DNA from: Microcaldota archaeon
GTDB lineage: Archaea; Micrarchaeota; Micrarchaeia; Anstonellales; Anstonellaceae
Direction: 5' to 3'
Assembly: GCA_026414185.1 (NCBI GenBank)
Contig: JAOAJL010000007.1
Span: 1 to 54,628, forward strand
DNA: 54,628 bases
The notes beneath the pieces were generated by a model. That model had not been told where the DNA came from and did no database searches. It was given only the letters and a program-made list of their open reading frames with translations. Position 1 is the first letter of the stretch. Every line of letters begins with the position of its first letter. The translations under genes were made by a program, and so were the position numbers. Positions 3,951-50,452 of the stretch are shown one piece after another.

Positions 3951-4502
3951 GTGCGAATGCCAGCCATGGAAAAAGAGCCCCTTTTCAGCGCCAAAAACGC
4001 CCTCTCGCTTCTTTCGGCGTTGGCAATGGCGATTGCGGCAATTGTGCTTTTCAGGTCCCTCCCCTTTCTTCACAATATAGGTTATTTTGAAATTTTCATC
4101 GTCTCCCTTCTTTCTTCCGCCACCATCTTCATCCCCCTGCCAGGCTTTGCAATAGTGCTTGGAGCCTCTGCGTATCTCAATCCGGTCTTGCTTGGAATTG
4201 CCGCAGGTCTGGGCTCGGGGATAGGCGAGATTTCCGGATACCTTGCTGGCTTTGCGGGAAGCGGGGCAGTGTCGCGCTTCCGCTCTTTCGTTTCGCACAA
4301 AGCCCAGATTGAAAAATACGGCGCCTTCGCAATATTCGTGCTTGCCTTCATACCGAATCCCGCCTTTGACTTGGCAGGGATTGCCGCAGGCGCAATCAGG
4401 ATGAGGTGGTGGGAGTTTCTGCTTGCCAGCTGTTCCGGTAAGATTCTGCGCTATATCCTGCTTGCCCATTTCGGGATATGGACCTCCAGCCTCTTTTTCT
4501 AA
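3951..4502 (+). CDS. VTT/DedA-like (SNARE-associated) membrane protein
   Basis: PGFAIVLGASAYLNPVLLGIAAGLGSGIGEISGYLAG and FIPNPAFDLAGIAAGAIRM motifs. Confidence 0.75.
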   Translation: MRMPAMEKEPLFSAKNALSLLSALAMAIAAIVLFRSLPFLHNIGYFEIFIVSLLSSATIFIPLPGFAIVLGASAYLNPVLLGIAAGLGSGIGEISGYLAGFAGSGAVSRFRSFVSHKAQIEKYGAFAIFVLAFIPNPAFDLAGIAAGAIRMRWWEFLLASCSGKILRYILLAHFGIWTSSLFF

Positions 4503-4563: not shown

Positions 4564-5625
4564 ATGATTCGGTGTCTTCCGATGGCAGGTCCGAACTTTC
4601 TTGTCTTGCCTAAAAATTCCAAAAAGACTGAAAATCCCTTGCAAGCCGTTTCTGATTTTTTCAGCCAACTTGCAGAGGAAATCAAAAACATGCCAGGTGA
4701 CCCTAAAACAACGCTGGAAAATGTCCAGAAAAGGCTTTCGGATTATGCCAAGCAGCTCAGCCAGAATCCCGAATTTAGGAAAGACCGAGAAACTCTCAAA
4801 GAAGCCCTGCGCCTTCTTTTTGTGGCGAAACACCAGTTTGGAGAAATTGCGCAAAGCAATGCTATTGACGAAAGGTTCAAGGTTACCATCGTCTGTAGAA
4901 TCCTAGTCAAACTCTCGCAAAAGGCGGAGACCCTTGCCAAAAAGTCCGAAGAGGAGGGCAAGCAGCCTGGGCTTGCAGTGCTCCAATCCAACTTCAACTT
5001 GCTTGTTGACAGCTTCGTGGAGCAGATAAAAGCCAAAGGCGGAGTAGAAAGCCCTAATTTGCGCCAGTTCGTAAGCGACTGCCTCAAAGCTTACTTCAAT
5101 GGAGTTGCAAGCGGCAAAATCACAACCAAGCGGTTCATCATGGTAGATGCAGACAACAACATGTTCTATGCATTTGATATGGAGAATCAGGAGCTTGAGT
5201 ATTGCACCTATGCCGCTCTTGGGACGGGCAGGCTAAGCTGCGTTCCAGGCAGCCGTGGAACTCCACCAGGGCTTTCCTATTTAAACGGGGAGAATCCCGG
5301 GTCAAGAGGGGGCTTCTGCCTTTCAGGCGCTGAAAGCTTCAATGAGAACAACGATGCCCGCACCATAAGGCTGCACGACCGCAACGGTCCAAAAGGCAAC
5401 TTAAACGGCACCCAAAAGACGACATGGGGCTGCATAGGAATAAGCGAGGACATACTCGGCAAAATGCTCTCTTCAGGAAGGGAAGCGGGCCAGCCTTATT
5501 ATCAGGCAGGAGTTTTCGTCTGGTCTGCCAACACCCCAGACAAATACGCAAGCGCATATGTTAATGACGATTTCTATTCAAGCGACTATGCCTCTGCCTA
5601 TCTTGGCAAAAACAAAGCGTCTTAA
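4564..5625 (+). CDS. Protein with N-terminal helical domain and C-terminal YkuD-like (L,D-transpeptidase-like) domain
   Basis: IRLHDRNG...GTQKTTWGCIGIS resembles the YkuD H...S/T-x-GC signature (Cys codon 5431-5433); no signal peptide; N-terminus resembles the 5827-6942 product. Confidence 0.6.
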   Translation: MIRCLPMAGPNFLVLPKNSKKTENPLQAVSDFFSQLAEEIKNMPGDPKTTLENVQKRLSDYAKQLSQNPEFRKDRETLKEALRLLFVAKHQFGEIAQSNAIDERFKVTIVCRILVKLSQKAETLAKKSEEEGKQPGLAVLQSNFNLLVDSFVEQIKAKGGVESPNLRQFVSDCLKAYFNGVASGKITTKRFIMVDADNNMFYAFDMENQELEYCTYAALGTGRLSCVPGSRGTPPGLSYLNGENPGSRGGFCLSGAESFNENNDARTIRLHDRNGPKGNLNGTQKTTWGCIGISEDILGKMLSSGREAGQPYYQAGVFVWSANTPDKYASAYVNDDFYSSDYASAYLGKNKAS

Positions 5626-5643
5626 AGCTGCGCAGGCTGGCAG

Positions 5644-5767
5644 TGGGCCGGAAGAGATTTGAACTCTCGACCTTTCGATTGCAAAATCCCAAGCGGCTTC
5701 CTATTCCAGCACCCAACCGCAGGAGATTTATCAGTCGAACGCTCCAACCAGGCTAAGCTACCGGCCC
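5644..5767 (-). tRNA. tRNA-Ile(GAU), intron-containing
   Basis: GGGCCGG/CCGGCCC acceptor, TTCGA/TCGAA anticodon stem with CTGATA|A loop, GAGAG-TTCAAAT-CTCTT T-arm; 49-nt intron at 37/38 (5680-5728). Confidence 0.9.
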
Positions 5768-5826
5768 AGCGGAGAAATTTCCTGCCCAAGAGAATAAAAA
5801 GCCTTTGTCGCAAAAGCAAATGAGTC

Positions 5827-6942
5827 ATGTTTATGCCACAGCCATTTTTGCCTCAAAAAACTGCTCAAGAAGAGAATGAGACTCCATTAGGCAGATTAGC
5901 CTCTTTTCTCGAGCAGCTTGCAGACGAGCTTAGGGATTGGAAAGGAGCAGATAGCAGCTCCGCCTTCCTTCTTTCCTATGCAAAAACTAGACTGGAAAAT
6001 TTCCTTGCAGAATTGAAACAAAATCCTCAAATGGCAGACCAGAAAGAAAATCTGGCTGAGGCAGAAAAAATCGCAAAAGAAGTTTGCGACTATTTGGGAG
6101 ATCTGCAAAAAGTTCCAGGGAATTTGGACATTGGCTCTGCTATCGACTACCTAAAGAAAAAGGCAAAGGAAGCCAAGGACAAAAATGAAGAATCAAAAGA
6201 GGCACTCACATTTGAGTGGCTAAAGCAGAATGCAAATTATACGAATATCCAGCGATATATAGACTTCAAGGAAAAAAACGGTGAAAGCTATTCTCAAGAA
6301 GAACTTGATTTTCTGAAGTTTTATCTCGTAGGTAACGTTGCCGTAGAAGAGAAGCTCAAATACGGTCTGAACGAAAAGGAAAAAAATTCCATGTACGAAT
6401 ACCTCGGCATCTTTCTGGGCAATGGCGGGGATTCAAGTTATCTAACATCCGTATATGGAACCTACAAAAAAGGATCCAATGACTGCTACACATTTGCAAA
6501 CATAAAGGTGTTTGAGAAATACGAAAATCTCTATGAGGGAAAAAATTACTCTCTCGATGGAACTCGGGTTAATTCTCCCAGAGGTTTTAATGAAGGCTAC
6601 AGCAGGCTAAGGTCTTCGACAGGTTCCAATTTCTACAGTTTTTCAAAATTCTCCAACCTAACTCTCCAAGTAGGTGATGTCATTGGGGTTGACAAGTCTC
6701 CCAACGGCACGGGCAATAACCACTGGGGCATACTGGCAATAATCAATGGAAAGCCGGTAGTAATCGGAAGAGGCAGCAGATTGGAAATATGGACGCTGGA
6801 AGAGTTTTTCAGATATGCGACGGGCGTAGATATAATCAGATATGGCAGTGCCCCATATGGCGAATACATACAGTACAACGTTAGGACGCGCACAACAGAA
6901 ATAAAGAATGGTACTCTGCCAGAAGATAGCTTCATTCATTAA
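5827..6942 (+). CDS. Protein with N-terminal helical domain and C-terminal NlpC/P60-like cysteine amidase domain
   Basis: Candidate Cys/His pair NDCYTFAN (Cys codon 6484-6486) and GDVIGVD...NNHWGILAIINGKPVVIGRG (His codon 6721-6723); N-terminus resembles the 4564-5625 product. Confidence 0.55.
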   Translation: MFMPQPFLPQKTAQEENETPLGRLASFLEQLADELRDWKGADSSSAFLLSYAKTRLENFLAELKQNPQMADQKENLAEAEKIAKEVCDYLGDLQKVPGNLDIGSAIDYLKKKAKEAKDKNEESKEALTFEWLKQNANYTNIQRYIDFKEKNGESYSQEELDFLKFYLVGNVAVEEKLKYGLNEKEKNSMYEYLGIFLGNGGDSSYLTSVYGTYKKGSNDCYTFANIKVFEKYENLYEGKNYSLDGTRVNSPRGFNEGYSRLRSSTGSNFYSFSKFSNLTLQVGDVIGVDKSPNGTGNNHWGILAIINGKPVVIGRGSRLEIWTLEEFFRYATGVDIIRYGSAPYGEYIQYNVRTRTTEIKNGTLPEDSFIH

Positions 6943-29742: not shown

Positions 29743-29906
29743 GGGCCCGTAGCTCAGTTTGGATAGAGCGGCACTCTCCTAACTTGGGCGTTTGTGCCAA
29801 GCACGCCGCCCAGCAACTCGCCCTCGCGCGAGGGCGAACGAGAGTCCCTTTTCCGAAATTGCTCGGAGAAAGGTGAAGGTCGTGAGTTCAAATCTCACCG
29901 GGCCCG
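29743..29906 (+). tRNA. tRNA-Arg(CCU), intron-containing
   Basis: GGGCCCG/CGGGCCC acceptor, GCTC/GAGC D-stem, CTCCTA|A loop, GTGAG-TTCAAAT-CTCAC T-arm; 89-nt intron 29782-29870. Anticodon stem GCACT/GGTGA has a terminal G.A and a T.G pair, so the intron boundary is less certain. Confidence 0.78.
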
Positions 29907-33510: not shown

Positions 33511-34497
33511 TCATATTATCTTCAGCAAGCCCCTCCCCACTTCCGCAAGGTCCGCCCCGAGAAGCGAGCTTCCCTGACGCATTGCGGTGAAGGTTATTAT
33601 GAGGGCAAAAAGCGGGTACAAAAGCGCCTGCATGTAAAGGACCGTTATGGTGTTCTTTATCTGCTCAAGTATGCCCGCATGCTTCTCCTCGTTCATCTTC
33701 ACCTCATAATATACCCGCATCGCAGAGCCGTAACTTGTCGCACATGGGGACTTTTCGCCTTCCTCATATGCGCTTATGCTTGTGCAGGCATGCGACGAAT
33801 TTGGCATCATTGCGACTATCAGCACGTATGTTATTGGAAAGACAAAGCCAAATGCAAGGGCAAATGCACATACAAAGCCGCCAGCCCCCCTTGTGGGCGC
33901 AAAAGAGCGGAGGATAAGTCCAATCGGCAGGAATATCTGCACCATCGTGTATTGGGAGAAGTGAAGAAGATAATACTGGACGTAGTGGAATATACCAAGA
34001 TAAACGATGGCTTTGTTTATGTAATGCGCAAGCGAAACTGGTCCAGCGAGGGCGAACGAGCCGCCCGTCCCCTCCACCCCAAAAGCATCAAAAGAAATAG
34101 AACTTGCAAGCTCAACGAAAAAATTGATTCTGAAAACAATATTGTAGATGCGATCCTCGCAGCGAATGGGACCGTTGACAATGTAGGCTTTTGCTATCTT
34201 GAATGGATCGCGCAGATGCCCTTCTGCGGCTTTTTTCAGCTCCACATTGCCGCTTGCAAGCGCCAGCTTTCCAGTAACTTCGCCCATAACCCAGTTGCCG
34301 GCAGAAACCATGCCAACCGCAAAGGCAATTATCAGGAAAGTGACGGCAACCTGCGCATACTCCGCCTTCGCCCAAAGCTCAAGCTGCTGGAGGGAAAATG
34401 CCTTTGCCGCCATCTGAACAAGAACGGTGATGAAAAGCGAAATGAGCCCGATCGTGGCGCATATCGCTTCCCACCCAAGCGGCAGATTCGCAGCCAT
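33511..34497 (-). CDS. Polytopic membrane protein, tandem paralog 6 (VirB6/TrbL-like in character)
   Basis: IFLPIGLILRSFAPTRGAGGFVCAFALAFGFVFPITYVL shared with neighbouring ORFs. Confidence 0.7.
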   Translation of the reverse strand: MAANLPLGWEAICATIGLISLFITVLVQMAAKAFSLQQLELWAKAEYAQVAVTFLIIAFAVGMVSAGNWVMGEVTGKLALASGNVELKKAAEGHLRDPFKIAKAYIVNGPIRCEDRIYNIVFRINFFVELASSISFDAFGVEGTGGSFALAGPVSLAHYINKAIVYLGIFHYVQYYLLHFSQYTMVQIFLPIGLILRSFAPTRGAGGFVCAFALAFGFVFPITYVLIVAMMPNSSHACTSISAYEEGEKSPCATSYGSAMRVYYEVKMNEEKHAGILEQIKNTITVLYMQALLYPLFALIITFTAMRQGSSLLGADLAEVGRGLLKII

Positions 34498-35565
34498 CTA
34501 TATCAGCCTCGTCAGGTTGCTCACGTCTATCTCCTCTCCCAGTATGTGGGTGAGGGAGCGGGCAATCTCTACAAGCACTATGAATGCAAGCACAGGGAGA
34601 ACCACTGCTGCGATAAAATAAAGGACAATCGGTTTTACGATGAATATGGCTGCGTTTGAAAGCCCATTGACCATCTGTTTGACGTTGCCAGTGTCTGCAA
34701 GTTGCCCTATGTTGTTTTTCAGGTCCTCCGCATTTGGCATTTTTCCGCTTTCCACCTGGCTATTGATGTCCTCTGTTTTCTGCTCAAGCTCGCCCTTTAC
34801 GTCCGTCAACTGCCCGCTTATTATGTAGTCCTGAAGCACTATGGATAAAGGGTAGAAAAACAGGAAAGTTATGGAAATGCCAATCAGCGTCCCCCCAAAT
34901 CCCCTTGACGGCTCAAACGCCCTGAAAAACAGCCCAAAAGGAAGTATGTAAGTCAAGGTCGCATACCCCATGTACTCAACCATCTTCATCTGAAGCCCAA
35001 TTAGCAGGTATGATGTTATGAAGCCGGAAACCATGTAAAACACAATCGTGTTAAGCTGACCAACAGACTCCAGGGGGTTGTCTTCCATTCCCAGTCCGAT
35101 GGGGTTGGAGATATAAGTGGTCCTCTGAAGAAGCCCGACAATTTTCGCAAAATGCATCAGGTAGCCAAACAATATCGCTCCCGTCGCCTGAAGCCCTCCA
35201 AAATAATCCTCAACAATTTCAAACATATTCTTGTCTGCGTACTTCGGCGGTTGGGAGGGCAAGTCAAGAAAACCAAGCTTGAATGCGCATGCGCCAAAAA
35301 TAAAGAAGGCAATAACCGCAAACAAGCCTGCTGTTGCAAATATCTGGAAAAGCTCAAACTTGCACCATGTAAGGAATGCTTGGTTGCGTAGGAAATTGGC
35401 AAACATGAAAAGCAGGACAAGCGAAATCAGAGAAACAAGGAGGGCAAGAAGGCAAAGCTCAAACCACCCGCTGCCAAGCACTCCAAACGAATATGGAAAT
35501 ACGTGCGGGTCGTGCGCAACTATCTTTTCGCATATTTTTTGGGCAAGCAACATAACATTCCTCAT
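34498..35565 (-). CDS. Polytopic membrane protein, tandem paralog 5
   Basis: YILPFGLFFRAFEPSRGFGGTLIGISITFLFFYPLSIVL; C-terminal LGEEIDVSNLTRLI. Confidence 0.7.
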   Translation of the reverse strand: MRNVMLLAQKICEKIVAHDPHVFPYSFGVLGSGWFELCLLALLVSLISLVLLFMFANFLRNQAFLTWCKFELFQIFATAGLFAVIAFFIFGACAFKLGFLDLPSQPPKYADKNMFEIVEDYFGGLQATGAILFGYLMHFAKIVGLLQRTTYISNPIGLGMEDNPLESVGQLNTIVFYMVSGFITSYLLIGLQMKMVEYMGYATLTYILPFGLFFRAFEPSRGFGGTLIGISITFLFFYPLSIVLQDYIISGQLTDVKGELEQKTEDINSQVESGKMPNAEDLKNNIGQLADTGNVKQMVNGLSNAAIFIVKPIVLYFIAAVVLPVLAFIVLVEIARSLTHILGEEIDVSNLTRLI

Positions 35566-36932
35566 ATTATCTTTTCAAGCGCGGATAGGTCAATCTCAGT
35601 GCCAAGCGCCTTGGCAACTTCCTTCGCCAAGGTTATTGTTATGAATATTATGAAAATAGGTATGACCAGGCTGACTATGAAAAGAAAGAAAATCACCTCG
35701 TATATTCCATACAGTAAAAGCGTCAATATTGGGGGCAGAAGAAAAGCAGCAAGCCAGCTTATATTGAATTTTTGAAGTATCTTATTCAATGCCACTGTGC
35801 CTATCGCCACACCTGCAACACCACCAAACGCACCCATGCCGCTGAGTTTTTCAAACACTCCGCCGACCGCCTTTGAGAGCACAGTATTATATATGCAAAA
35901 AACTCCGCTTCCAACAACGGGTAGTTGGCCATCAATAGAAATCACAATGTCGCCTTGTAGAACCTTCTCCTGCGAAAGGCGGTAGGGCTTGCTTGCAGGC
36001 CACGGGTCATAGCCTCTCTTGCCATTAGCGATGAAAGGCTCGTTTTCGTCCTCTGGCTGGGGGTTAATTCCAACACAGCACATCGGCTTGTCCCCAACGC
36101 AAGTCGCCCAGATATGAGGCGGATTTGCAATCGCAAGTTCGTTTTCAAAATAGTTAGTTATCATCTCGCCAAACTGGACCATCATGAACGGATAGACAAA
36201 ATAAAGCGATATGGCAAGACCGATTAGGGCGTTTGCGCCTGCCTTTGCCTGAGGTCCAAAAGCCCGAAGGAATATGCCAAGAGGCAAAAACAGCGGAAGC
36301 ATGGTGTTTTTGATAAAGCAGAGCAAAAATTCGTGTGCAAACCACTCGGCAACAGCCGCGGCTATAAGTTGCATTATCGCCCCAAGCCCGTCAAATATAG
36401 GTCTGAACATAGGGGCAATTTGAAAACTCGTAGCAAAAGCCTTAAAGCCAGCTAGCTTTATATTAGGTTTTTGGTGCGCCACAAACGAAATAATCATGTT
36501 TGAGAAAACCATAAGGGCAAAATCAAAAACAACAGTGTTTCTTATTAGAGTTGAATAAGCGCGGGCGGTGTCTATGTTTTTTACGCCAAAGTCCTCAAGC
36601 CCAGCAAACGACAAAGTCAGCACAGAGAGTATCGCTGCCGTTTCAGCCACGCCCCACAGTGTTCCGCGTAGCCACTCATTCAGCTTTGCGCTTCCGAACA
36701 AACCGCTTACTATGTAGCCTACTGATACTATCAATATGCTTAGAATCAGCGCAATCCAAGCAAGCGGCATCCAGCTATTCGGCGTGCCGCCGACGCACTC
36801 CACGGGCGCTGAAGAGCCAAACATGGTTCCGATGTCGGCAAAGTCAAACGAATTGAGCATGCCGGCAATCATTATGAGGAATATCAAAAATGCGGCAACA
36901 TATGGCATTCTTGAACGGCGTTTTTCCATCAT
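35562..36932 (-). CDS. Polytopic membrane protein, tandem paralog 4
   Basis: LFLPLGIFLRAFGPQAKAGANALIGLAISLYFVYPFMMV; C-terminal LGTEIDLSALEKII. Confidence 0.7.
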   Translation of the reverse strand: MMEKRRSRMPYVAAFLIFLIMIAGMLNSFDFADIGTMFGSSAPVECVGGTPNSWMPLAWIALILSILIVSVGYIVSGLFGSAKLNEWLRGTLWGVAETAAILSVLTLSFAGLEDFGVKNIDTARAYSTLIRNTVVFDFALMVFSNMIISFVAHQKPNIKLAGFKAFATSFQIAPMFRPIFDGLGAIMQLIAAAVAEWFAHEFLLCFIKNTMLPLFLPLGIFLRAFGPQAKAGANALIGLAISLYFVYPFMMVQFGEMITNYFENELAIANPPHIWATCVGDKPMCCVGINPQPEDENEPFIANGKRGYDPWPASKPYRLSQEKVLQGDIVISIDGQLPVVGSGVFCIYNTVLSKAVGGVFEKLSGMGAFGGVAGVAIGTVALNKILQKFNISWLAAFLLPPILTLLLYGIYEVIFFLFIVSLVIPIFIIFITITLAKEVAKALGTEIDLSALEKII

Positions 36933-38191
36933 ATCAGCCTTGAAAGTATGGATATTTCAACGTCTCCGCCTATTAGCGGCGAGAGATACTTAAAAGCGGC
37001 GAGCATCGCCATCAAGCCAAGAAAAGGGATAACTATAGAGAAGACCATCAATGCCCCAAGCGAACCGAGAGTTCCATCTGGGGAAAATTTAGGAAGGATA
37101 TTTCCCTTGAGCCAATTGGTTTTTATCATCTGCAGAAGTTGGCTTTCAAGTTTGTTCATAGTTCTCTTTTGGGCTTCAATGTTTTCCTGGCTTGCCGAGC
37201 CGCAAATATCCATTATGCTTACTTTTGTTTTGCTCATCTCATTCTGGCTCATCGTATTTGGATTGAGGTCGCCCGCAATTCCAGGAATAAATGAGTTTTC
37301 CATATCAACATCCGTTCCAAATTTTGGAGAAGAATTCTGGTCGCTTCCCCTTACAAATCCAAATAAGATGGCGTTTCCAAGGGCATAAAACATAGGCAAG
37401 ACGATATAGGCGCACAGCCCGAGAGCTATAAGAAGCCCGCCAAGCTTTCTTGTGAAGTAAAAAATGCGCAGGACAAGCCCCATGGAAAGCATAAGAGGCA
37501 AAAAGGCAACATGCAGATATTCAAGCATAAGCTGCTGTATTCTGGCAAACATCATCATTTTCACTGTAAGGTCAAAAATCACGTTGTAATACTCGCTGAT
37601 AATAGACAAGCCTGCAAGTGGGCGTATGGAGATGCCGGCAAGCTCAACTATCGCTTTAGCTGATAAGCCGATGGATATATTGTCTGCTAATGCATAAAGA
37701 GAATTAAAGGTGAGAGCGGTTATCGCATTTGTTCTTCCACTCTCATAAAGCATCTGCAAATAGTCCATAGCAAGAGCGATGTGACAGGGCTTTCCGGCTT
37801 GAATGGCGGTCCTGGGCAAGCAAGTGGAAACTGCTGGGTCGCAGCAGATGATACTGTTAACGTAGCTTCGCCAAGCAGGAGAGCCTGCGGTTGCCAACAC
37901 TCTCAGCCAGCCATCCATACTTGCCATTAGCACAAGCACAACCAGCATTATCAGAGCCGAATAGAAAAGCTGACCAACCTCCTTTTTCACCCACGCTTTC
38001 ATGCTCTCGTCGCCAAGGAAACTGAAAGCCATCCACCCCAATGCAAGAAGAAGTGAAACTATTGCCATTGCAAGAAGCGGCATGCCAAGCCATCCCATAA
38101 CAGGTTTTATCTCCTTTCCAGTAGACGATGTGCAGCCTGCCAAAAGAAGCAGGCATATGAAAAGCAACCCAACCGCCATTCCTCTGCGCAT
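36929..38191 (-). CDS. Polytopic membrane protein with lipobox-like N-terminus, tandem paralog 3
   Basis: LLLAGC near the N-terminus; LSMGLVLRIFYFTRKLGGLLIALGLCAYIVLPMFYAL; C-terminal IGGDVEISILSRLI. Confidence 0.7.
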   Translation of the reverse strand: MRRGMAVGLLFICLLLLAGCTSSTGKEIKPVMGWLGMPLLAMAIVSLLLALGWMAFSFLGDESMKAWVKKEVGQLFYSALIMLVVLVLMASMDGWLRVLATAGSPAWRSYVNSIICCDPAVSTCLPRTAIQAGKPCHIALAMDYLQMLYESGRTNAITALTFNSLYALADNISIGLSAKAIVELAGISIRPLAGLSIISEYYNVIFDLTVKMMMFARIQQLMLEYLHVAFLPLMLSMGLVLRIFYFTRKLGGLLIALGLCAYIVLPMFYALGNAILFGFVRGSDQNSSPKFGTDVDMENSFIPGIAGDLNPNTMSQNEMSKTKVSIMDICGSASQENIEAQKRTMNKLESQLLQMIKTNWLKGNILPKFSPDGTLGSLGALMVFSIVIPFLGLMAMLAAFKYLSPLIGGDVEISILSRLI

Positions 38192-38194
38192 ATT

Positions 38195-39100
38195 TTAACC
38201 CATCTTCTGGCTGATAAATTTCACAGTGCCCTTGATAAATGCAATCGTAAGCGTTATGGATAAGGCAGGCAAGAAAAGTGCCTGCAAAAGAATATACGGC
38301 ATAACTTCAAGAGGGCGGAAAAGCAAACCGTCAATGTCAAACATGCCACCCTGGCTTACCGCCCACTGCGAAAAAGCCGCATATCTGTTTTGATCCAGTG
38401 TTCCAAGCGGGCTTTTGAAATCAGCCTTTTTCAGCATCATCCCAACAATTTCAGAGTGCATAACGTAGGTATAAGGATAAACAAGCTGAAAGCCGAGGGC
38501 AGAGGCGATAAGAAAAGTGCCCGCATCCCTCGTTGGCGGGAAAATCCTCAATATTGCCCCTGCGGGAAGCACAAAAGGCAATGCAATGGCTTTTATTACC
38601 TCAATTATCACCTGCTGAACCATAAGGCTGGCGGTAAAAGGAGTCATAAGCGCAAGAAGGAAATCCGCCACCCGCTCAATAACTACAAAAGAAGGGAAGG
38701 CAGGCACCAACACTCCCCACACTGATAGCCCCCATCTCATGCTTATAGAGCCCATATACTGAGAATATATTTTCAGAACCTCCATTGACATTATCGCCAC
38801 AAGAGCAAGGTTGTTTGAAATATAGCTTAGATAGCTCCTCGCAATTGCAAACGGATCTGAGCCTGCCAACACTTCAGTTACCTGAGCCGCAAAGCAGGAA
38901 AAACCGAATATGCTAACCATAAGAAAAGCCGAAACTCCAAGCTGGTAAAGCTCAATTGAAACAAACGACTCATATTCCGGCTTTCTGAAAAAAGCTGCCG
39001 CCATGTAAGCTAAACCAAGCAGAGTGGCAAGCAGGGCAATAGAGACTGCTGCAATTGACAATGCAGTCATTGCTATGAAATCCGGAGTGCAAAGAGGCAT
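38195..39100 (-). CDS. Polytopic membrane protein, tandem paralog 2
   Basis: FVLPAGAILRIFPPTRDAGTFLIASALGFQLVYPYTYVM. Confidence 0.7.
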   Translation of the reverse strand: MPLCTPDFIAMTALSIAAVSIALLATLLGLAYMAAAFFRKPEYESFVSIELYQLGVSAFLMVSIFGFSCFAAQVTEVLAGSDPFAIARSYLSYISNNLALVAIMSMEVLKIYSQYMGSISMRWGLSVWGVLVPAFPSFVVIERVADFLLALMTPFTASLMVQQVIIEVIKAIALPFVLPAGAILRIFPPTRDAGTFLIASALGFQLVYPYTYVMHSEIVGMMLKKADFKSPLGTLDQNRYAAFSQWAVSQGGMFDIDGLLFRPLEVMPYILLQALFLPALSITLTIAFIKGTVKFISQKMG

Positions 39101-39121
39101 CTTTCAACCACCTATCTTCTT

Positions 39122-40609
39122 TCATACTAATTTTGTAATTCCCAGCAGTCTTGGCTCCCCCCCTATCAGAATTGAAAAGTCTTTCAGCAGCGTCAAAGTT
39201 ACAACTATGCTGTTTATTATGAACAGAAACATCAAGGCAAGAAGCTTGCCAGTTTCTGCAGTCGCATGTTCAAACTGTCTAAACGCAAACCGCGGTCCAG
39301 CGCTTACAATGGCACCTGTCGCATCCTTCATTCGCTGTATGAAGACGTTCTGCGTGCCCCTATCATACTGCTCCTCGTTCAATTTTCCAATCCTGTCTTT
39401 TTCTTCCATATCCCGCTTCAGCCTAACCTGCGTTTTTGTGGAAGGGTCATTTTGTGCCAGCTTCTCATTTTTCAATTTGGAGATATACTCCTCCTCTTTC
39501 TTCCCCTCTTCCGACAGGATAGTTTCAAGCCTACTTGAAAGCGCAGGATTGTCAATCGCTTCCTCGCAGAGCAAGAAAGACGAGGTCGCGTCAAGGAAAT
39601 CAGATACTGCTGGCTGGCATTTGTCTTCGTAGCAGGAATTCGTGCAACACTCCTGGTCGGTCTGGCAGCTTTCCCCCACTTTTTTATAGGCAGGGTCGCT
39701 GCACAAGGGGGGAGAATCCACCATATTCCACATATGCCAATTAAGCAGAATGGTAAGTGGAAATATGAAATAGGCTGCGAAAGCAACTGCCACGATTGTC
39801 GAGCCGGTCTTTCTTGTGAATGGAAAAACGCGCATCAATATCCCAAGTGGAAGAAAGTAGTTCAAGGCAGTCAGATCAATAAAGTTCAAAAGTATCTTCT
39901 GTGCGGCAGCCCCGCCTATTAGCGTTCCAAGCAAATCCACAATTACAGTGTTTGCCTCATTGATAAACGAAAAAAAGATCGGAAGAATAATGTTGTGTAT
40001 CTCAAATTCAACTTGGGGAACACCCCATATCATCACATTTATCTCAATGCTGAGTGTTCCTAAAAATCCACTCAGTATTTCAAATATCATCAAGCGCAGA
40101 TACCTTCCTACAAGCGCCGGCAGCAATACACCGTTGTTATCGCTTAGGGCATATGGAACGCCTACCGCTATGATATCCCAGAAACTCCATCTACATCCAA
40201 TAAAATAATCCGCCTGCCCTATCGCGAAGTTTCCTTTCTCATAGTAATAGCCGTTAATAGGGTCACCCCTCAATTCTCCGTGAAATTTAGTCCACTCCGG
40301 ACAGCTTTTTGGCATCCCGGCTGTTTTGGGGACAAGCCCATGCCCCACTTTATCAAATATGCCATTTGGTATTGTAAGAAGGATGCAGATAATCACTATA
40401 ATCGCACTTACCGCCAACTCACGCAACTCAAGCTTTGAAAATGCCTTAAGGGATGGCATAGAGAAAATTTCACTCATCATATAAGAAAGAGCGGTTATGA
40501 AAGCAGCTATCCCAAATGCCGCGATTATGGCTGGATTTTGGAAGAAGTTCTGCGCTCCATAAAGGATGAAATCCATCATTGCCAAGCCACCATCAGTTTC
40601 CTGCTTCAT
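39122..40609 (-). CDS. Polytopic membrane protein with Cys-rich insert, tandem paralog 1
   Basis: YFLPLGILMRVFPFTRKTGSTIVAVAFAAYFIFPLTILL; CQTDQECCTNSCYEDKC module; start placed at MKQETDGG. Confidence 0.7.
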   Translation of the reverse strand: MKQETDGGLAMMDFILYGAQNFFQNPAIIAAFGIAAFITALSYMMSEIFSMPSLKAFSKLELRELAVSAIIVIICILLTIPNGIFDKVGHGLVPKTAGMPKSCPEWTKFHGELRGDPINGYYYEKGNFAIGQADYFIGCRWSFWDIIAVGVPYALSDNNGVLLPALVGRYLRLMIFEILSGFLGTLSIEINVMIWGVPQVEFEIHNIILPIFFSFINEANTVIVDLLGTLIGGAAAQKILLNFIDLTALNYFLPLGILMRVFPFTRKTGSTIVAVAFAAYFIFPLTILLNWHMWNMVDSPPLCSDPAYKKVGESCQTDQECCTNSCYEDKCQPAVSDFLDATSSFLLCEEAIDNPALSSRLETILSEEGKKEEEYISKLKNEKLAQNDPSTKTQVRLKRDMEEKDRIGKLNEEQYDRGTQNVFIQRMKDATGAIVSAGPRFAFRQFEHATAETGKLLALMFLFIINSIVVTLTLLKDFSILIGGEPRLLGITKLV

Positions 40610-40644
40610 TACACAGCATAAACTTATAAGTCTGTCAAGCAAAA

Positions 40645-43600
40645 ATGGCTTTTGGTGAGTGTTTGGACTGGCGCAGGGCAGGGCTTGCATTGGCATTTGC
40701 CTTGCTAATGGTGTGCCAGCCCTTATTTTGCGATTATATATACAGCGACCTTCCCTACAAGACGCTGCTTTCTGCGAATGTCCGCTTCAATGAATTCACT
40801 GTTAAGCTGATTTATATTAACGTTTCTTACTACCAGAAGCCGGAGACCCAAAAAGTCCCGCGGTTTCCAAGCGTATATGGTGACAATTCGCAGGATGATT
40901 TTTCAGCAGCAGGTTTTCCGGTAGAGAATGGAGAAATATACTTCAAGTTTAACGGCCAGCGGGTATCTGAAAATGGCGGCGAAGAAGGGTGCTATCCAGC
41001 AAAGACGAATAGCAGCGGTATGGCAAGGTGCAAAATAAATTTTGTATGGGATTCATCAGAAGGAAAGTTTGTAAGCATAGACAAAATTAAAGATTGCGGC
41101 AACGTGGAAATAGAGTTTAAAGGCGGCTCTATCGGAGAACTTGACCTCAAACCTTCAAGCATGTCGCTTATTTTCTGCCCAAAGGAAAGCGAGGCGATTT
41201 CAGCATTCGGATCTGCAATTTATTCCGCCTTGACAAACAGACCGGCGGCTGCCTTCTTCTGTTTTACTGCGATGCTGATAAGCGGAATCCTTGTCGCCGC
41301 GATGTATTATTCAGGAAGGGACCCGCTATCCCTTTTTGACCTTACCACCCCGCGCCTTCCGAGAACAAAGCAAGGCAGAGTTTCTGGAGGCAAAGCTTCG
41401 TTTGCGGTAAGGACTGCGGCAGCAAGATATGCACAGATGAAAAAACAAGTAGAAAAACAGTATAAAAAACTGTTAGTAAAAACTGCGAAAAAGAACAAGA
41501 GGGACGTCGGAGCTGCAAAAAAGGAGTTAAAGGCGCTGCTCAAAGAGCTCAAGAGTCTGCGGGGGAAGGCAACCGATGAGGACATAAGAAGATTCCAAGA
41601 AAAGCTAAAGGCGCTTTTTGTAAAATACGGCCTCAATCCACAGAACAAGTATTACCGCGATGCTCTTTATTATGCATCTTCTCTTGTGAACATATACCTA
41701 TTTGCTGATATAGCATCGGGGGCGATGTCTGCTGCGCGCAGCGCAGAGGCGGGGGGAAGGCTTACACGGTTCATAGACGCAAAGTTGAAAAATCTCAGCG
41801 ATAGGCTTGCGGCAAACGACCAAAAATTGCAAAATATCAAAGGGGTCAAGCTCCTACTCCATGTTCCACTAATATTCGCAGTGCCAAAAATATCAAAGAA
41901 GATTCTGGATTCAGTCATGCTTAGACGAGCTGGCAAGAAGTGGATAAAATCAACTGCAAAGCTAACCATAGGGCAGGCGATATTCATCGCTGGAATAAAG
42001 AAAGAGGCACGGAAGGGAAAAGTCGCCATAACAGAAAATAGCTTCAGATGGTGGTTCAAAGGGGTGCGCCGGCTTTTTGACAAAGCCCCGTTTGAGTCTG
42101 AAGAAAGAAAGCTTACTTTGCTTGGGAAATGGTTCAAGTGGTATTACGGATGGGATTTCAAGAAATTCGTCCAAAAGCACGATATTTGGAGAAAAAAGCT
42201 TGATGAATACCGGGATGAAGTCAAAAGAGCAAGAGTACTAATAAGCGAATACCAAAACTCGCTGAAATTGCTTCTTGTAAAAGAGCTGCTTGATGAGCTT
42301 GTGCGCGAAGAGAGGGCAGAACGGTATCTTAAAGAAATATTGAAGAAGCTGGCGAAAAACAAGCAGCTGGATGAAAAAGAGATAAGAGACCTTGAAAAAT
42401 CTCTCACCGGTATATTCAAGCAAATCCGGGATTCTGCCTTAGCAAAAGCAGACAACCCAGCCGAAGCCGCAAGTCTGATGAGAAGTCTTGCAGACAAGTA
42501 TTTCCATGAACACAGGGCTCCTGAGGAAATAAGAAGGGAATTTGAAAAAATCATCAACCGAAATATCGCCCTTTTGAATGCGATTGGCCAGCATGGCGGA
42601 AAAGATGCGGCTGCTCTTCTAACAGAGCTTCTCAAAGCAGACGAGCGCCTTCGCGGCATGAACGTGGCTTCCCAGCTTCAAGAGATAAAGAAGTTACAAG
42701 ACGAACTAAACAGGGTTTACGGAATTTCAGTGCTGCTGCACGATGCCTTTTTGAGCGACCCGAAAAACTACGGAAAGGCAAAGGCAATCGAGCTTTCGCA
42801 CATAGAAGCCATCGTGGATTTTGAAGCAAGGCAGATGCTCCAAAAGATGAATGAAGCAGGCGATAAGAATGTCAAGAAGCTCATGCAAGGCGGCTTCCTC
42901 ACCAGAGAACTGATTGAAAGATACCTGGCGGAGCATAGAGAAGCGTACGAGTCCCTTGCCAAGACTGTCAACCAGAAGCTTCGCTCCATGGGCGGCATCC
43001 TGGAAGATTTTGTTGATAAAAAGATGGCAGAGGGCGATAAAACATTTTTCCTCAGGCTTGGTCTTGGCTATGCTTTTGACTCACAGGGGAAAAAATATGC
43101 AGTTGACAGTGTAAGAGAGTTTGAGTCCCACTTCATAAAAGAAGTGCGCAACCGGGTAATTAGAGAATTCTCCAAGCATGACACATTTGACAAGAGCTAC
43201 AATCCGAACGCCGACCTTGTAAGCCTCCTGAATCAAAAAATAGCGGAGCTGAGGTTACAAATAAACAGGCAGCTGGGTATGGATGAGCCGTCAATCCTGC
43301 CAGGCACAGATCCTGGCGGATCATTCCAATGCCGTCTTATAAACCGCATAGTTGGCATCCTGAATGATCCTGAGCTTAAAAAATTCATGAAAGAAAACGG
43401 CTTGGATTCCATAAAGGACATAAACGAGCTGGAGATGCTTTTCCGAGCAGGAGTAAAAGCGCCCGATTTCATCAGAGAAATTACAAAAGCCCTATTGAAA
43501 GCAAACAAAGCGCAACTTGAGCAAATTGCAGAGCTGTTGGCGACCAGCGAAGCTTCAAGGAACATGTTTCTCAAAAGCATGGAAACCGCAATCAGCAACA

Positions 43601-46600
43601 GAATCGCGGTGCTGGAGAGGCTCTCAAGCTTAGATTATGAGGACATCAAAGCCATTTGCAAGAGGCTCAATATCCAATTTTCCAGAGAGCTTTATGAGTC
43701 CAATCGGGCTGCATTGCATGAGCAGATAGTAGAGCGGCTTCCTCTGCTGAGGGACGAGGCTTTCTTTGGGAAGAGGGCGCTGGGCTTCATCTCCAGAAAA
43801 ACAGGGCTTGAGCCGGAAACCCTATGTCGTTCCTCACTAAGCGAAATAGTCCTGGTTTCCATTCTGGAAAAAAGCTTTGTCCAAACTACGAGATGGGCTG
43901 CTGAGGTATTAAAAATCAACTCAATGATCAACTACCGCTACGAAGGGCCCGCTTACTGGAAAATGTCGCTGGAGGAAATTGTCGGTCAATTGAGAGAAAA
44001 AGGCAAGATGCAACAGCAGATTGAGTGGGCAGCCCTCAGAAACCAGTTCCTTGCAAACCAATACGAAGGTAGCAGAGGCTATCATATAGAAACTCTTCTT
44101 TTTACAACGCGATGGATGAATCGCCTCGCAGAACAAGCCCTTGTCTATAGCCAAGGCAACGCGCCATGGGGCGGAACGATCCTTGCGAACTTCAATTCAG
44201 TTATGGACCACAACCGCTTCAGCTATCTTGCCAAGAAAGCCGTTTTCAGGAATTTGATTGACCATGAAAGCACACTTTTCCAGGACGCAGACTATGCGAT
44301 GAAGCTTGCCGCCCTGAAGGGCTGGACGAAAGAAGAAATAGAGGCAATACAGAAAAAGGACGCGAAGGCACTAGAACGTTTAAAGTCTATTGAATATGAT
44401 GCAGATGCATACGACCTTCTCATGAAACGCGGCTTGCAGATGCGGGATGTGCAGCAAGGGCTGGCGTACTGGATATCAAGCGACAAGATGGGGACTGTTC
44501 CGATAATCGAGTTTGACAAAGGAGAGCTTGAAAGGCAGGGGAAAGGGATAATTCTGCTTGCTGACAAAAAGGGGGACCATCTGAAAGAAGACATAAGGGA
44601 CTACAATCCTCTCCTTGCGCGGTTTAACATGTCCGATTACGCAAGCGTCGTAAACGGGCTTGTTCCAGTAAGGATTGTCTCTAAAGAAGGCGAGCCGCTG
44701 AAAATAAGGCGAGTGGACCCGCTGAAATTTCATGAAGTAGAAAGGTTTTATACAATAGGCGAGAGCAACATAAACAAAAGAAACGAGATTGCAAACATAA
44801 TCGCCGCCACAGGCTCGCTCAAATTCATGCACGTGACTGACTACCAAGTAAACTATGCGCCTCGCAGGCAGAGGATTGTCACATCAGTAGGTTCTGCGAT
44901 TGGCGGATTTGTCTTCGCAGTCTTCTATGACCACATAAAGCGCTTTAATGAGTGGTATGTGGCAGCCAACCGCTACCGCGACATGCTCTATGACCTTGAA
45001 AGGCAGATGAGCGGGATGAGGACTGCCGGAATAAAAAGATGGGACGCAAATGAAGCGCTCAGGCAATACGGGGCTGTTTTGGAAAGCGAGATGGAAGCGC
45101 TTGATAAGAAGAACCCAAGAAGCGGCGCCAGCCGCGCTGAAATACTGCGGGACCTAATAGTCAATCTCCAGAATACCGACAAGTCAAATTTCCTGAAAAG
45201 AAGCTATCTTGCCTACACGTATTCAGCCCACGCGATGGTTGAAAATGCAGTCCGTGAGGCAGAATTGGAAAAGAAAGCCCTCAAAATAATGCTTGATAAG
45301 GGCATAATAAGCAGAGATGAATACAGCCAGCTTCTCAATAGCAACGCCTGGAAGACCAGGCTTGATACTGTTTCTTCTGAGCTTCGGAGCTACGGGCTAG
45401 AGACAAGAAGCCTGGAGCGAGCTCTCAAAAGCGACTCCATTTCCGCATCCACAGCAATCTCAGCCCTGAAAGACTGCAATAGAGACGTTTCAAAAGAAAC
45501 AAGCACGTTCACAAAAGCGCTGATAGAAATGGGCGGTTCTGGGCAGATGACCAGAAGCATTTTCTCAACATGGAATCCCTCAACCACTTACAGATACACA
45601 GAAGGAATGCTTGCGAAGTCCCACTCCGCAATTGAGGCAAGCTGCATGCGCGATACTCGGACCGCTCTTGGGCAGAAGATAGGGCTTGAATACGCCTTCT
45701 ATATGGGATTTGATACCGGCCAGGGTATGTATGAAAACCCACGGACATACGCATCTTCGTTGTGGGAATACGAGCTTATTCCATACCTCCAATTTGTCGG
45801 GTGGGCACACAAGTTCTTCCTTCCGATTGCAAGCACATTTTACAGAGGTCAGGCAGGCATGTCTTCCTACTTTTTCAAGACCGAGCTTGAGCCAGGCTCG
45901 GCTGGCAAAGTCACAACTGACCTGTCTCTTCTCTTGCGCATAAAGAAAGGCGTGTCTGATTTTGCTTCCTCAACATGGCAAAATATCTCAAACTACGCAG
46001 GGGTTACGAATGTGGTGGGTGCCCTCCAGACCGGCGGCAGGATAAAATTTGACGAGCTTGGCAGGTCATATATAGACAAAGCGTGGTATTCAAACTTGGT
46101 CAAGCATTACGCTGTGCCGAGCGAATGGTACAGCACTTATGCCGCCATCCAGCGCCAAGCCAGTTTACAAGACAAAATAGCCGCCTCGGACATATTCAAA
46201 AAGAATGAAATAATCGTTGATGGCGAAGGGAAGAACGTCTATATGGGAGAGGATGGGAAGATTTACTATGGCAAAAAAGAAAAGGAAGAAGCCGAAAGAG
46301 CAGGGGTGAGCTTCGCAAATGAAGGCCAGCCGCTCAGAACGCATGACCTTGCAGAAGCGTGGGTTAAAACATTCAACGAATATATGTTCTCCTACGGGTC
46401 AAAAAAAGACGAGCTACGCGAGCAGCTTCGCGAATATGAAAACCTAATGAAGCCATATATGTATTCTCTTGTTGATTTTCGGGCAGAGGGGGCAAGGCGC
46501 GGAACCTCCGGCAAATACTTCATGGAAGACGGCTCGCGGTATCGTTTCATGAACCTTTATCTACCCAACTACATGAATGCCTGGATGGAAACTATATCGG

Positions 46601-47265
46601 TTCCAGGCGCCTTTGAGCTAAATCCGCTTGCCGGCGGAAAGGAGCTTGGGCCAAGAATCGCCGCAGACATCTCCCGCGCAGAAAAAGATTCGCGCCTTGG
46701 GCGCATGCAGGATGAGTTTGTTTTAAGATGGAATGAGGCGCTGCAAGACTTTATTGTCATAAACAACTCAACGATACATCAAGATGCAGTGCGGGACCAC
46801 TATTATTACCGCACTCCTGCCCTCCTTCACACCATAAAATACCAAAGCTATCTTGTTCGTTACGAATGGCTTGACCCGTGGCTTAGCCAATTGCCCGGTT
46901 ACAAATTCCTGCACCACAAGTTCTTTGAAGCCCGCAGAAGGCCGGAGCTTACGGACGAAGAAAACAGAAGGATGCGCACTGCGATGGCAACCTACCTGCC
47001 AACCTGGAGGGATGAGGAGATTTCCCAAAACATAGCGCTCAGAGAGGCAAATTACAATCCTGTTTTCCGTTCATATGAAAGCAGGGCGACATTTGCCCTT
47101 CAGCGGTTCTTCTACAAGCGAATAGACTCGTATATACACCGCTGCAGGCTGATACAGCGAAGCTACGGGCTGCCTGATGAATTGAGGGCGCGCTCCTCCA
47201 TGGCAATGTTAAACATGGAAGAGATGTTCCGGCTCACTTTACTGCTTGACAGTTCAATTTACTAA
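40645..47265 (+). CDS. Giant 2206-aa protein: signal peptide, about 170-aa ectodomain, one clear TM, very long charged helical region
   Basis: Single uninterrupted ORF; LALAFALLMVCQPLFC near the N-terminus; AAAFFCFTAMLISGILVAAMYYSG TM; K/E/R-rich beyond. Confidence 0.85.
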   Translation: MAFGECLDWRRAGLALAFALLMVCQPLFCDYIYSDLPYKTLLSANVRFNEFTVKLIYINVSYYQKPETQKVPRFPSVYGDNSQDDFSAAGFPVENGEIYFKFNGQRVSENGGEEGCYPAKTNSSGMARCKINFVWDSSEGKFVSIDKIKDCGNVEIEFKGGSIGELDLKPSSMSLIFCPKESEAISAFGSAIYSALTNRPAAAFFCFTAMLISGILVAAMYYSGRDPLSLFDLTTPRLPRTKQGRVSGGKASFAVRTAAARYAQMKKQVEKQYKKLLVKTAKKNKRDVGAAKKELKALLKELKSLRGKATDEDIRRFQEKLKALFVKYGLNPQNKYYRDALYYASSLVNIYLFADIASGAMSAARSAEAGGRLTRFIDAKLKNLSDRLAANDQKLQNIKGVKLLLHVPLIFAVPKISKKILDSVMLRRAGKKWIKSTAKLTIGQAIFIAGIKKEARKGKVAITENSFRWWFKGVRRLFDKAPFESEERKLTLLGKWFKWYYGWDFKKFVQKHDIWRKKLDEYRDEVKRARVLISEYQNSLKLLLVKELLDELVREERAERYLKEILKKLAKNKQLDEKEIRDLEKSLTGIFKQIRDSALAKADNPAEAASLMRSLADKYFHEHRAPEEIRREFEKIINRNIALLNAIGQHGGKDAAALLTELLKADERLRGMNVASQLQEIKKLQDELNRVYGISVLLHDAFLSDPKNYGKAKAIELSHIEAIVDFEARQMLQKMNEAGDKNVKKLMQGGFLTRELIERYLAEHREAYESLAKTVNQKLRSMGGILEDFVDKKMAEGDKTFFLRLGLGYAFDSQGKKYAVDSVREFESHFIKEVRNRVIREFSKHDTFDKSYNPNADLVSLLNQKIAELRLQINRQLGMDEPSILPGTDPGGSFQCRLINRIVGILNDPELKKFMKENGLDSIKDINELEMLFRAGVKAPDFIREITKALLKANKAQLEQIAELLATSEASRNMFLKSMETAISNRIAVLERLSSLDYEDIKAICKRLNIQFSRELYESNRAALHEQIVERLPLLRDEAFFGKRALGFISRKTGLEPETLCRSSLSEIVLVSILEKSFVQTTRWAAEVLKINSMINYRYEGPAYWKMSLEEIVGQLREKGKMQQQIEWAALRNQFLANQYEGSRGYHIETLLFTTRWMNRLAEQALVYSQGNAPWGGTILANFNSVMDHNRFSYLAKKAVFRNLIDHESTLFQDADYAMKLAALKGWTKEEIEAIQKKDAKALERLKSIEYDADAYDLLMKRGLQMRDVQQGLAYWISSDKMGTVPIIEFDKGELERQGKGIILLADKKGDHLKEDIRDYNPLLARFNMSDYASVVNGLVPVRIVSKEGEPLKIRRVDPLKFHEVERFYTIGESNINKRNEIANIIAATGSLKFMHVTDYQVNYAPRRQRIVTSVGSAIGGFVFAVFYDHIKRFNEWYVAANRYRDMLYDLERQMSGMRTAGIKRWDANEALRQYGAVLESEMEALDKKNPRSGASRAEILRDLIVNLQNTDKSNFLKRSYLAYTYSAHAMVENAVREAELEKKALKIMLDKGIISRDEYSQLLNSNAWKTRLDTVSSELRSYGLETRSLERALKSDSISASTAISALKDCNRDVSKETSTFTKALIEMGGSGQMTRSIFSTWNPSTTYRYTEGMLAKSHSAIEASCMRDTRTALGQKIGLEYAFYMGFDTGQGMYENPRTYASSLWEYELIPYLQFVGWAHKFFLPIASTFYRGQAGMSSYFFKTELEPGSAGKVTTDLSLLLRIKKGVSDFASSTWQNISNYAGVTNVVGALQTGGRIKFDELGRSYIDKAWYSNLVKHYAVPSEWYSTYAAIQRQASLQDKIAASDIFKKNEIIVDGEGKNVYMGEDGKIYYGKKEKEEAERAGVSFANEGQPLRTHDLAEAWVKTFNEYMFSYGSKKDELREQLREYENLMKPYMYSLVDFRAEGARRGTSGKYFMEDGSRYRFMNLYLPNYMNAWMETISVPGAFELNPLAGGKELGPRIAADISRAEKDSRLGRMQDEFVLRWNEALQDFIVINNSTIHQDAVRDHYYYRTPALLHTIKYQSYLVRYEWLDPWLSQLPGYKFLHHKFFEARRRPELTDEENRRMRTAMATYLPTWRDEEISQNIALREANYNPVFRSYESRATFALQRFFYKRIDSYIHRCRLIQRSYGLPDELRARSSMAMLNMEEMFRLTLLLDSSIY

Positions 47266-47302
47266 CCTTATGATTAAAAAACGCATCTGGAAAGTGATTG
47301 TC

Positions 47303-49498: not shown

Positions 49499-49578
49499 AA
49501 ACAGAGAAACCCAAATTCCGCCTATCTTCCAACACGTGTTTCCAGAGCCTCATTCCCCCCAACGCCCATCACAGGCTT

Positions 49579-49608
49579 AAATACGAAAAAAGAAAATACG
49601 AAAAAAGA
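49579..49608. repeat. Perfect 15-bp tandem duplication AAATACGAAAAAAGA x2
   Basis: Direct reading. Confidence 0.9.
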
Positions 49609-49620
49609 GAAGAAGCGCGG

Positions 49621-50061
49621 CTAATTTCCATTCTCCTTAAGCTTTGCCCCTTCCCTCTCCCGCTCAAGCTCAATTGTCTGGCGAGCCCGCCATATGTCCT
49701 TGGGAAAGTGCCTGCCGCGCATGAAGAAGTTCTTCTCATAGGTTTTTGCCTCAAACTTTGAGGCGATGATGTCTGCGGCTGGCTCAACATCAAACTCCTT
49801 GCAGGAGAAGATGTCAACCGACGCATAGCCTTTCTCGGGGAAAGTATGTATGCTGATGTGGGACTCTGCAATAAGAACTATGCCGGATACCCCCCAATCC
49901 TCCGGCTTTAGCCCCGAATACGAAAACGTATAGGGCGGCATAATCTTCGTCATGCCGATAAGCGACGGCAACTCATCCAAAAAAGAATAAACAAAATTCA
50001 CATCCTTCAATTTTTTCTTGTTGCACCCATACATGTCCATGGTCAAATGCGGTCCAAACAT
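49621..50061 (-). CDS. speD: S-adenosylmethionine decarboxylase family proenzyme
   Basis: VLIAESHISIHTFPEKGYASVDIFSC processing/active-site signature; start placed at MFGPHLTMDMYG. Confidence 0.92.
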   Translation of the reverse strand: MFGPHLTMDMYGCNKKKLKDVNFVYSFLDELPSLIGMTKIMPPYTFSYSGLKPEDWGVSGIVLIAESHISIHTFPEKGYASVDIFSCKEFDVEPAADIIASKFEAKTYEKNFFMRGRHFPKDIWRARQTIELEREREGAKLKENGN

Positions 50062-50452
50062 CTGTTTCGCTTCCTCCTTTTCTCTGCCGAGGTTCTCCCT
50101 CCCAGAGAAGACGCTATATATAAATAGACAACATTTATAAATATTCCTGTTTTCAAAAAATAAAAAAAGCTCATAATCCATTTTGGCACAAAAATATTAG
50201 TTATTATTATCTTTTTTGAAAAAAAGAAATCTAATAGCTGTTTTTTTCTGTTTAAAAAATTTAATATCGTCTTTAGCTAATTTCAGGCTTGATTTCCTTA
50301 TTTTTATCTAAAAATAGGCTCTAATGCCAGATTTAATAGATTTAGGACATCTTATATATTTTCTAACTTTCAACAACGTCTGTAAGGTGAAGTTGCTCAA
50401 TTTTGCCCCACGCGCCCCATAGCAATATATATGGCGAATGGGATTTCCTTCC

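Follow-up and report, generated by a model that had tools for sequence, protein, structure and literature searches.

The window analysed here is a stretch of 54,628 nucleotides of DNA from a Ca. Micrarchaeota archaeon, a tiny DPANN organism of the symbiont type. Near its left end, two genes on the forward strand, P0001 and P0002, encode proteins that have an N-terminal head in common and C-termini unrelated to each other. Both open reading frames were confirmed, with the true start of P0001 perhaps at Met7 (position 4582), and the features of this site are as follows:

3951-4502, forward strand: VTT-domain membrane protein, left border of the site
4564-5625, forward strand: P0001, four-helix head (residues ~20-131) followed by a YkuD_2-type L,D-transpeptidase domain (predicted, ~165-325)
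4582-4833, forward strand: the significantly similar part of the head in P0001
5644-5767, reverse strand: tRNA-Ile with an intron, anticodon GAU read by eye (Rfam RF00005, 53.8 bits; sequence compared with relatives)
5827-6942, forward strand: P0002, four-helix head (~20-135) followed by an NlpC/P60-like domain (predicted, ~205-340)
5833-6087, forward strand: the significantly similar part of the head in P0002
6946-7896, reverse strand: conserved gene, function not assigned, right border of the site

Because the tRNA-Ile gene separates the two genes on the opposite strand, an operon of P0001 and P0002 was excluded. Third-position GC was 0.54 in P0001 and 0.43 in P0002, compared with 0.60-0.68 in sampled core genes.

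The resemblance of the two N-termini, which an earlier note on this DNA had aligned by eye, proved to be significant. BLASTP reported 31% identity over 75 aa (E 9e-9), and the local alignment score was 108, against 3000 shuffles that averaged 35 and never exceeded 66 (z 12.8) and other helical proteins of the window that scored 28-64 in the same local comparison. Significant similarity is confined to about 70 residues (~15-84 in P0001 and ~8-82 in P0002), and the remaining non-catalytic part of the two proteins has no significance alone (6% of shuffles equaled its score). AlphaFold2 placed helices at residues 25-42, 47-67, 75-95, and 104-131 in P0001 (low confidence, pLDDT ~40-69) and at 20-39, 45-65, 73-95, and 102-135 in P0002 (pLDDT mostly 70-92, in a model built from a single sequence), and the same four-helix layout is thereby predicted at nearly equal positions in both heads. 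The border of the module is clean, since the similarity to relatives from other genomes begins at residue ~148 of P0001 and ~138 of P0002, i.e., past the end of the shared head.

The suggestion that this head is a trafficking module was not supported for the family as a whole: a head profile searched against 99 related genomes found no further significant match (best other E value 0.011), and the catalytic domains occur within the genus under other N-termini. The head is more aptly seen as a fusion or duplication common to P0001 and P0002, and it may still act as an adaptor in this one genome. As for known folds, Foldseek returned unspecific helical bundles, none with E < 0.001, and therefore the head offers no functional hint; the weak Pfam matches differed between the two proteins and were all below the cut-off, and neither a family nor a fold match linked the head to the N-terminal domain of a known secretion route.

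Beyond the head, the C-terminus of P0001 can be placed through its relatives. P0001 alone gave no Pfam match to YkuD. The relative nearest to it, in G005, is 51% identical across this domain and reached YkuD_2 at 4.2e-5, below the cut-off, and another relative, in G006, is a clear YkuD_2 member (1.4e-19). A profile made from P0001 and its G005 and G002 relatives matched the Pfam-positive Micrarchaeal YkuD_2 proteins with a P value of 3.5e-16, in an alignment that superposes the LH and TWGC motifs. In the YkuD_2 set, the cysteine of the GC motif (Cys290 in P0001) is present in all eight members and the upstream histidine (His271) in seven of the eight, and the second histidine of classical YkuD is absent from the whole set. 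These comparisons give a solid assignment of the P0001 C-terminus to the YkuD_2-type (PF13645) L,D-transpeptidase domains, with His271 and Cys290 as the predicted catalytic residues. In the structural model, the part expected to take the beta-rich L,D-transpeptidase fold had a pLDDT below 50, too low to be of use. Two further genes were noticed among these relatives: the YkuD_2 gene of G027 (L088, 8329-9638, reverse strand) is split into two ORFs and thus probably broken or affected by a sequencing error, and the YkuD_2 gene of G002 overlaps the gene that comes after it (L015, 11095-11901, forward strand), whose lipoprotein-like product carries HEQSH, a motif of the HExxH type, has no Pfam match, and is possibly a metallopeptidase.

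The C-terminus of P0002 was assigned with moderate confidence as NlpC/P60-like, with Cys220 and His299 as the predicted catalytic pair. It belongs to a set of 11 Micrarchaeal relatives that have the pattern DC...GDxI...SP...HWG in common, and the profile of this set aligned with E. coli MepS, MepH, and NlpC (P 7.8e-5, probability 62%), cysteine on cysteine and histidine on histidine; the control comparison with the YkuD set gave 0.035. Pfam NLPC_P60 itself reached 0.03-0.07, in two of the relatives. Searching PDB sequences with the domain profiles gave no useful match, and the C-terminal part of the P0002 model, expected to take the papain-like fold, also had a pLDDT below 50, too low to be of use. 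The earlier note's reading of two different wall-active types of C-terminus is supported, more firmly for YkuD than for NlpC/P60. In the alignments, the predicted catalytic residues stand in the order His271 before Cys290 in the YkuD_2 set and Cys220 before His299 in the P60-like set (10/11 and 11/11 members, respectively).

Whether P0002 is an active enzyme is less certain, because the third polar residue is missing (in the alignment of the 11 proteins, P0002 has Gly where several relatives carry His) and because the catalytic cysteine has been lost in the G006 relative (L016, 8644-9279, forward strand), a probable inactive protein in which ADLHSF replaces the DC motif. The absent residue weakens the claim of an active P0002, not that of NlpC/P60 descent. 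It would also fit a re-use of these folds on something other than peptidoglycan, such as a protein, a lipid, or the surface of the archaeon itself, as would the apparent lack of peptidoglycan synthesis in this archaeon and a weak resemblance of the P60-like family to the permuted C92/LRAT branch. However, this last similarity is local to the His block and the cysteine lies upstream, as in the ordinary branch, so that P0002 was rejected as a permuted C92/LRAT type; P0002 is, moreover, paired with a YkuD_2 domain, whose known members act on peptidoglycan, and relatives carry N-termini resembling peptidoglycan-binding domains, at sub-threshold scores. We regard such a change of substrate as quite improbable.

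Comparison with related genomes revealed that the site itself is variable. The VTT-domain gene and the right-border gene are each present in nine of the ten genomes of the genus. In G007 the site is empty, and the VTT-domain gene is followed by 9 bp, the tRNA, 66 bp, and the conserved gene. In G005, a member of the window's genus, and in G002, the gene after the tRNA is a YkuD_2 gene; in G004 it is a P60-like gene, followed by one further gene and the conserved gene. The catalytic-domain relatives at this site in the genus have N-termini other than the head of P0001 and P0002, and those of G005 and G002 are peptidoglycan-binding-like in Pfam (PG_binding_1 0.061 and PG_binding_3 0.05, both sub-threshold). 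Since both occupancy and N-termini differ among the relatives, wall-type enzymes come and go at this tRNA-Ile site with exchanged front parts. A phage origin was rejected, since phage records, viral contigs, and phage families all gave no match, as was a plasmid origin, for which one machine-linked relative (see below) gave no plasmid match. Three side observations concern the tRNA and its surroundings: the intron-bearing tRNAs at 5644-5767 (reverse strand) and 29743-29906 (forward strand) were missed by ARAGORN and detected by Rfam, and the first of them had escaped the earlier note; the intron of the tRNA-Ile varies in length among relatives and is absent from G005; and the stretch ahead of the conserved border gene in G002 (L027, 1-346) resembles, by its translation, a CRISPR-type repeat array.

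The archaeon is apparently unable to make a peptidoglycan wall of its own. SEDS glycosyltransferases were absent from all nine genomes searched, and the only Mur-ligase-fold protein of the window's genome (G000) reads as FolC, named by eye, so that peptidoglycan synthesis of its own was rejected and any peptidoglycan substrate should be foreign, i.e., bacterial, as judged from the gene content of metagenome-assembled genomes that are 75-92% complete. No immunity gene for P0001 or P0002 was identified in the window, and a host without peptidoglycan would need none. Both enzyme types occur together in three of 246 genomes (G000, G022, and G023; P 7.5e-4, not corrected for kinship), and G006 also has both. 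Among these, G023 holds an independent second pairing, in which a classical YkuD adjoins a P60-like gene and both have signal peptides (L020, 890-2074 and 2151-2906, forward strand). In G004 (L017, 8719-9624, reverse strand) and G006 (L016, 9299-10180, forward strand), the gene immediately after the P60-like gene encodes a protein of ~300 aa that probably has a signal peptide; the two proteins are 25% identical and may be partner, immunity-like, or substrate proteins.

As the earlier note had remarked, neither P0001 nor P0002 has a signal peptide, here by a simple hydropathy computation rather than SignalP. By the same measure, signal peptides are lacking in eight of nine YkuD_2 and seven of 11 P60-like proteins, and the remainder carry one. 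Because P0001 and P0002 have no signal peptides, they may leave the cell by another route, and our tentative reading, to which we give somewhat less than an even chance, is that they belong to a variable set of wall-active cysteine enzymes for use on bacteria, built from one head and two catalytic domains and exported independently of Sec. We infer the enzymatic activities, the target, the export route, and the role of the head as follows. From its sequence, the YkuD_2 domain of P0001 would cut or exchange the L-D bond of peptidoglycan stem peptides, and the NlpC/P60-like domain of P0002 would cut in or beside the stem peptide; the target would be a bacterium to which the archaeon attaches, on which it preys, or with which it competes; and the four-helix head may serve as an adaptor for export.

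The lack of signal peptides in most members would equally suit enzymes that stay inside. Under a salvage scheme, fragments of bacterial walls are taken up and their peptides trimmed in the archaeal cytoplasm by P0001 and P0002. For both enzyme types such recycling members are known in bacteria, where ElsL-type L,D-carboxypeptidases (YkuD fold) and YkfC-type NlpC/P60 endopeptidases trim wall peptides in the cytoplasm. An uptake of wall-derived amino acids has also been proposed for DPANN archaea (PMC11537232). Nevertheless, salvage accounts poorly for the relatives with peptidoglycan-binding-like N-termini (sub-threshold), for the signal peptides of other relatives, and for the placement of YkuD_2 genes behind a gene with a lytic transglycosylase (SLT) domain, and we consider it unlikely.

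This last placement concerns a large membrane machine in the window, which is the leading candidate for the export route under the preferred reading of enzymes used on bacteria:

33511-40696, reverse strand: six related polytopic membrane proteins, a possible export route
40645-47265, forward strand: machine protein of 2206 aa
47246-49498, forward strand: lipoprotein-like protein of 750 aa with an SLT lytic transglycosylase domain, the last gene of the machine
49621-50181, reverse strand: SpeD-like gene, which in G011 comes after the YkuD_2 gene

The SLT domain scored 0.0077 in the window's protein and 3.9e-6 (above the cut-off) in its G007 homolog, and relatives of the SLT protein were found in 81 of 99 Micrarchaeal genomes. 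The six polytopic proteins, searched for VirB6-like proteins, gave no Pfam or PDB sequence match. The conserved block (33511-49498 in the window) also occurs at L086, 326-16659. The window's genome encodes two HerA/AAA_10-type ATPases (~1e-12 each, one with a TraG P-loop at 1.1e-9), unlinked to the machine; these two HerA/VirB4-type proteins of 589 and 511 aa (L113, 1177-2946, and L115, 1333-2868, on contigs C29 and C11) are related to each other and are a candidate power source for it.

The earlier note had called a link between the two enzymes and this machine speculative, and our data lend it indirect support. In G011, where the order of six polytopic genes, large gene, and SLT gene is conserved, a YkuD_2 gene lies 33 bp after the SLT gene on the same strand and ahead of SpeD; in G010, a YkuD_2 ORF and the SLT gene share 41 bp when the ORF is taken from its first start codon. 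These genomes represent two sister genera of the window's genus, and with YkuD_2 genes directly behind or overlapping the SLT gene, a YkuD_2 protein without signal peptide is probably co-expressed with the machine in both. In the YkuD_2 tree, the G010 and G011 proteins group with G006, apart from P0001, G005, and G002 (modest support of 90-94, no branch at the starred level), and the tree does not support orthology of P0001 with the machine-linked proteins. P0001 and P0002 lie ~28 kb away from the machine, with no gene in the window between the SLT and SpeD-like genes (49499-49620), the place that YkuD_2 occupies in G011. The machine is not needed for all relatives, as some carry ordinary signal peptides, and its delivery of P0001 and P0002 is no more than plausible.

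The same gene neighborhoods would suit enzymes that are wall-opening helpers rather than toxins, loosening a partner's peptidoglycan at one spot and thereby letting the machine dock or pass on other material, much as VirB1 does. The SLT domain of the machine and the YkuD_2 genes in its gene string in G010 and G011 agree with such a role, and in monoderm bacteria VirB1 joins SLT with a CHAP cysteine peptidase (PMC12102498). Yet in the window's genus the enzyme genes lie apart from the machine and differ from one genome to the next, and most machine-bearing genomes lack them (YkuD_2 included), which makes a helper role doubtful. A bolder form of the preferred reading, in which Micrarchaeota deliver signal-less wall-cutting enzymes to bacteria through this widely conserved machine with its lytic transglycosylase, with the head as the delivery tag of this genome and the tRNA-Ile site as a cassette store that exchanges catalytic domains, also seems improbable to us.

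Several known systems resemble parts of this arrangement. One survey places archaeal peptidoglycan hydrolases, known to kill bacteria, in nearly 5% of archaeal genomes; 32% of the proteins have a known signal peptide, so that most archaeal members, like the pair described here, lack one (PMC12352652). Woldo and Danwoldo, studied there, are likewise wall-cutting enzymes of peptidoglycan-free archaea, patchily distributed and with exchanged domains, but they are modular M23 or glucosaminidase proteins with Tat signals and PG_binding_1 domains, whereas here YkuD_2 and NlpC/P60-like domains stand under a private four-helix head and the pair has no recognised wall-binding domain (PMC12352652). The murein lytic transglycosylases of Woesearchaeota and Pacearchaeota (PMC8204110, PMC9723730) are also peptidoglycan-type enzymes of DPANN archaea with a proposed tie to bacteria; they cut the glycan strand and have their counterpart in the window in the machine protein at 47246-49498, while P0001 and P0002, from Micrarchaeota, are of peptide-cutting types. 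In polymorphic toxins, NlpC/P60 and L,D-peptidase toxin domains occur under shared N-termini (PMC3482391), similar to the one N-terminal part with different wall-cutting C-termini seen here, although the present case comprises two members only, with no known trafficking domain, no repeats, and no immunity gene identified in the window. Type IV systems, those of Patescibacteria among them, have wall hydrolases of the VirB1 type (PMC12102498), in which a lytic transglycosylase and a cysteine enzyme are likewise associated with a membrane machine, comparable to YkuD_2 after SLT in two genera; here, by contrast, the proteins are separate, without signal peptide, and optional, and the machine is a candidate type IV system at most. 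In the literature searched, neither YkuD together with NlpC in archaea nor transpeptidases in DPANN led to a description of a pair of the P0001/P0002 type. Three points are new here: in Micrarchaeota, one head carries both YkuD_2 and NlpC/P60-like domains; a tRNA anchors the variable site; and a YkuD_2 gene adjoins a conserved machine.

To our knowledge, the hosts of most DPANN archaea are not known, and those brought into culture have archaeal hosts. In a Micrarchaeon that lacks peptidoglycan genes, wall enzymes of peptide-cutting types are a pointer to bacteria, be it as prey, as partners, or as rivals. The placement of YkuD_2 behind the machine genes in the sister genera suggests, short of proof, that the archaeon has means to act on other cells' walls, and the YkuD_2 protein encoded directly behind the conserved machine is a concrete candidate for its cargo or helper that can be tested with purified proteins.
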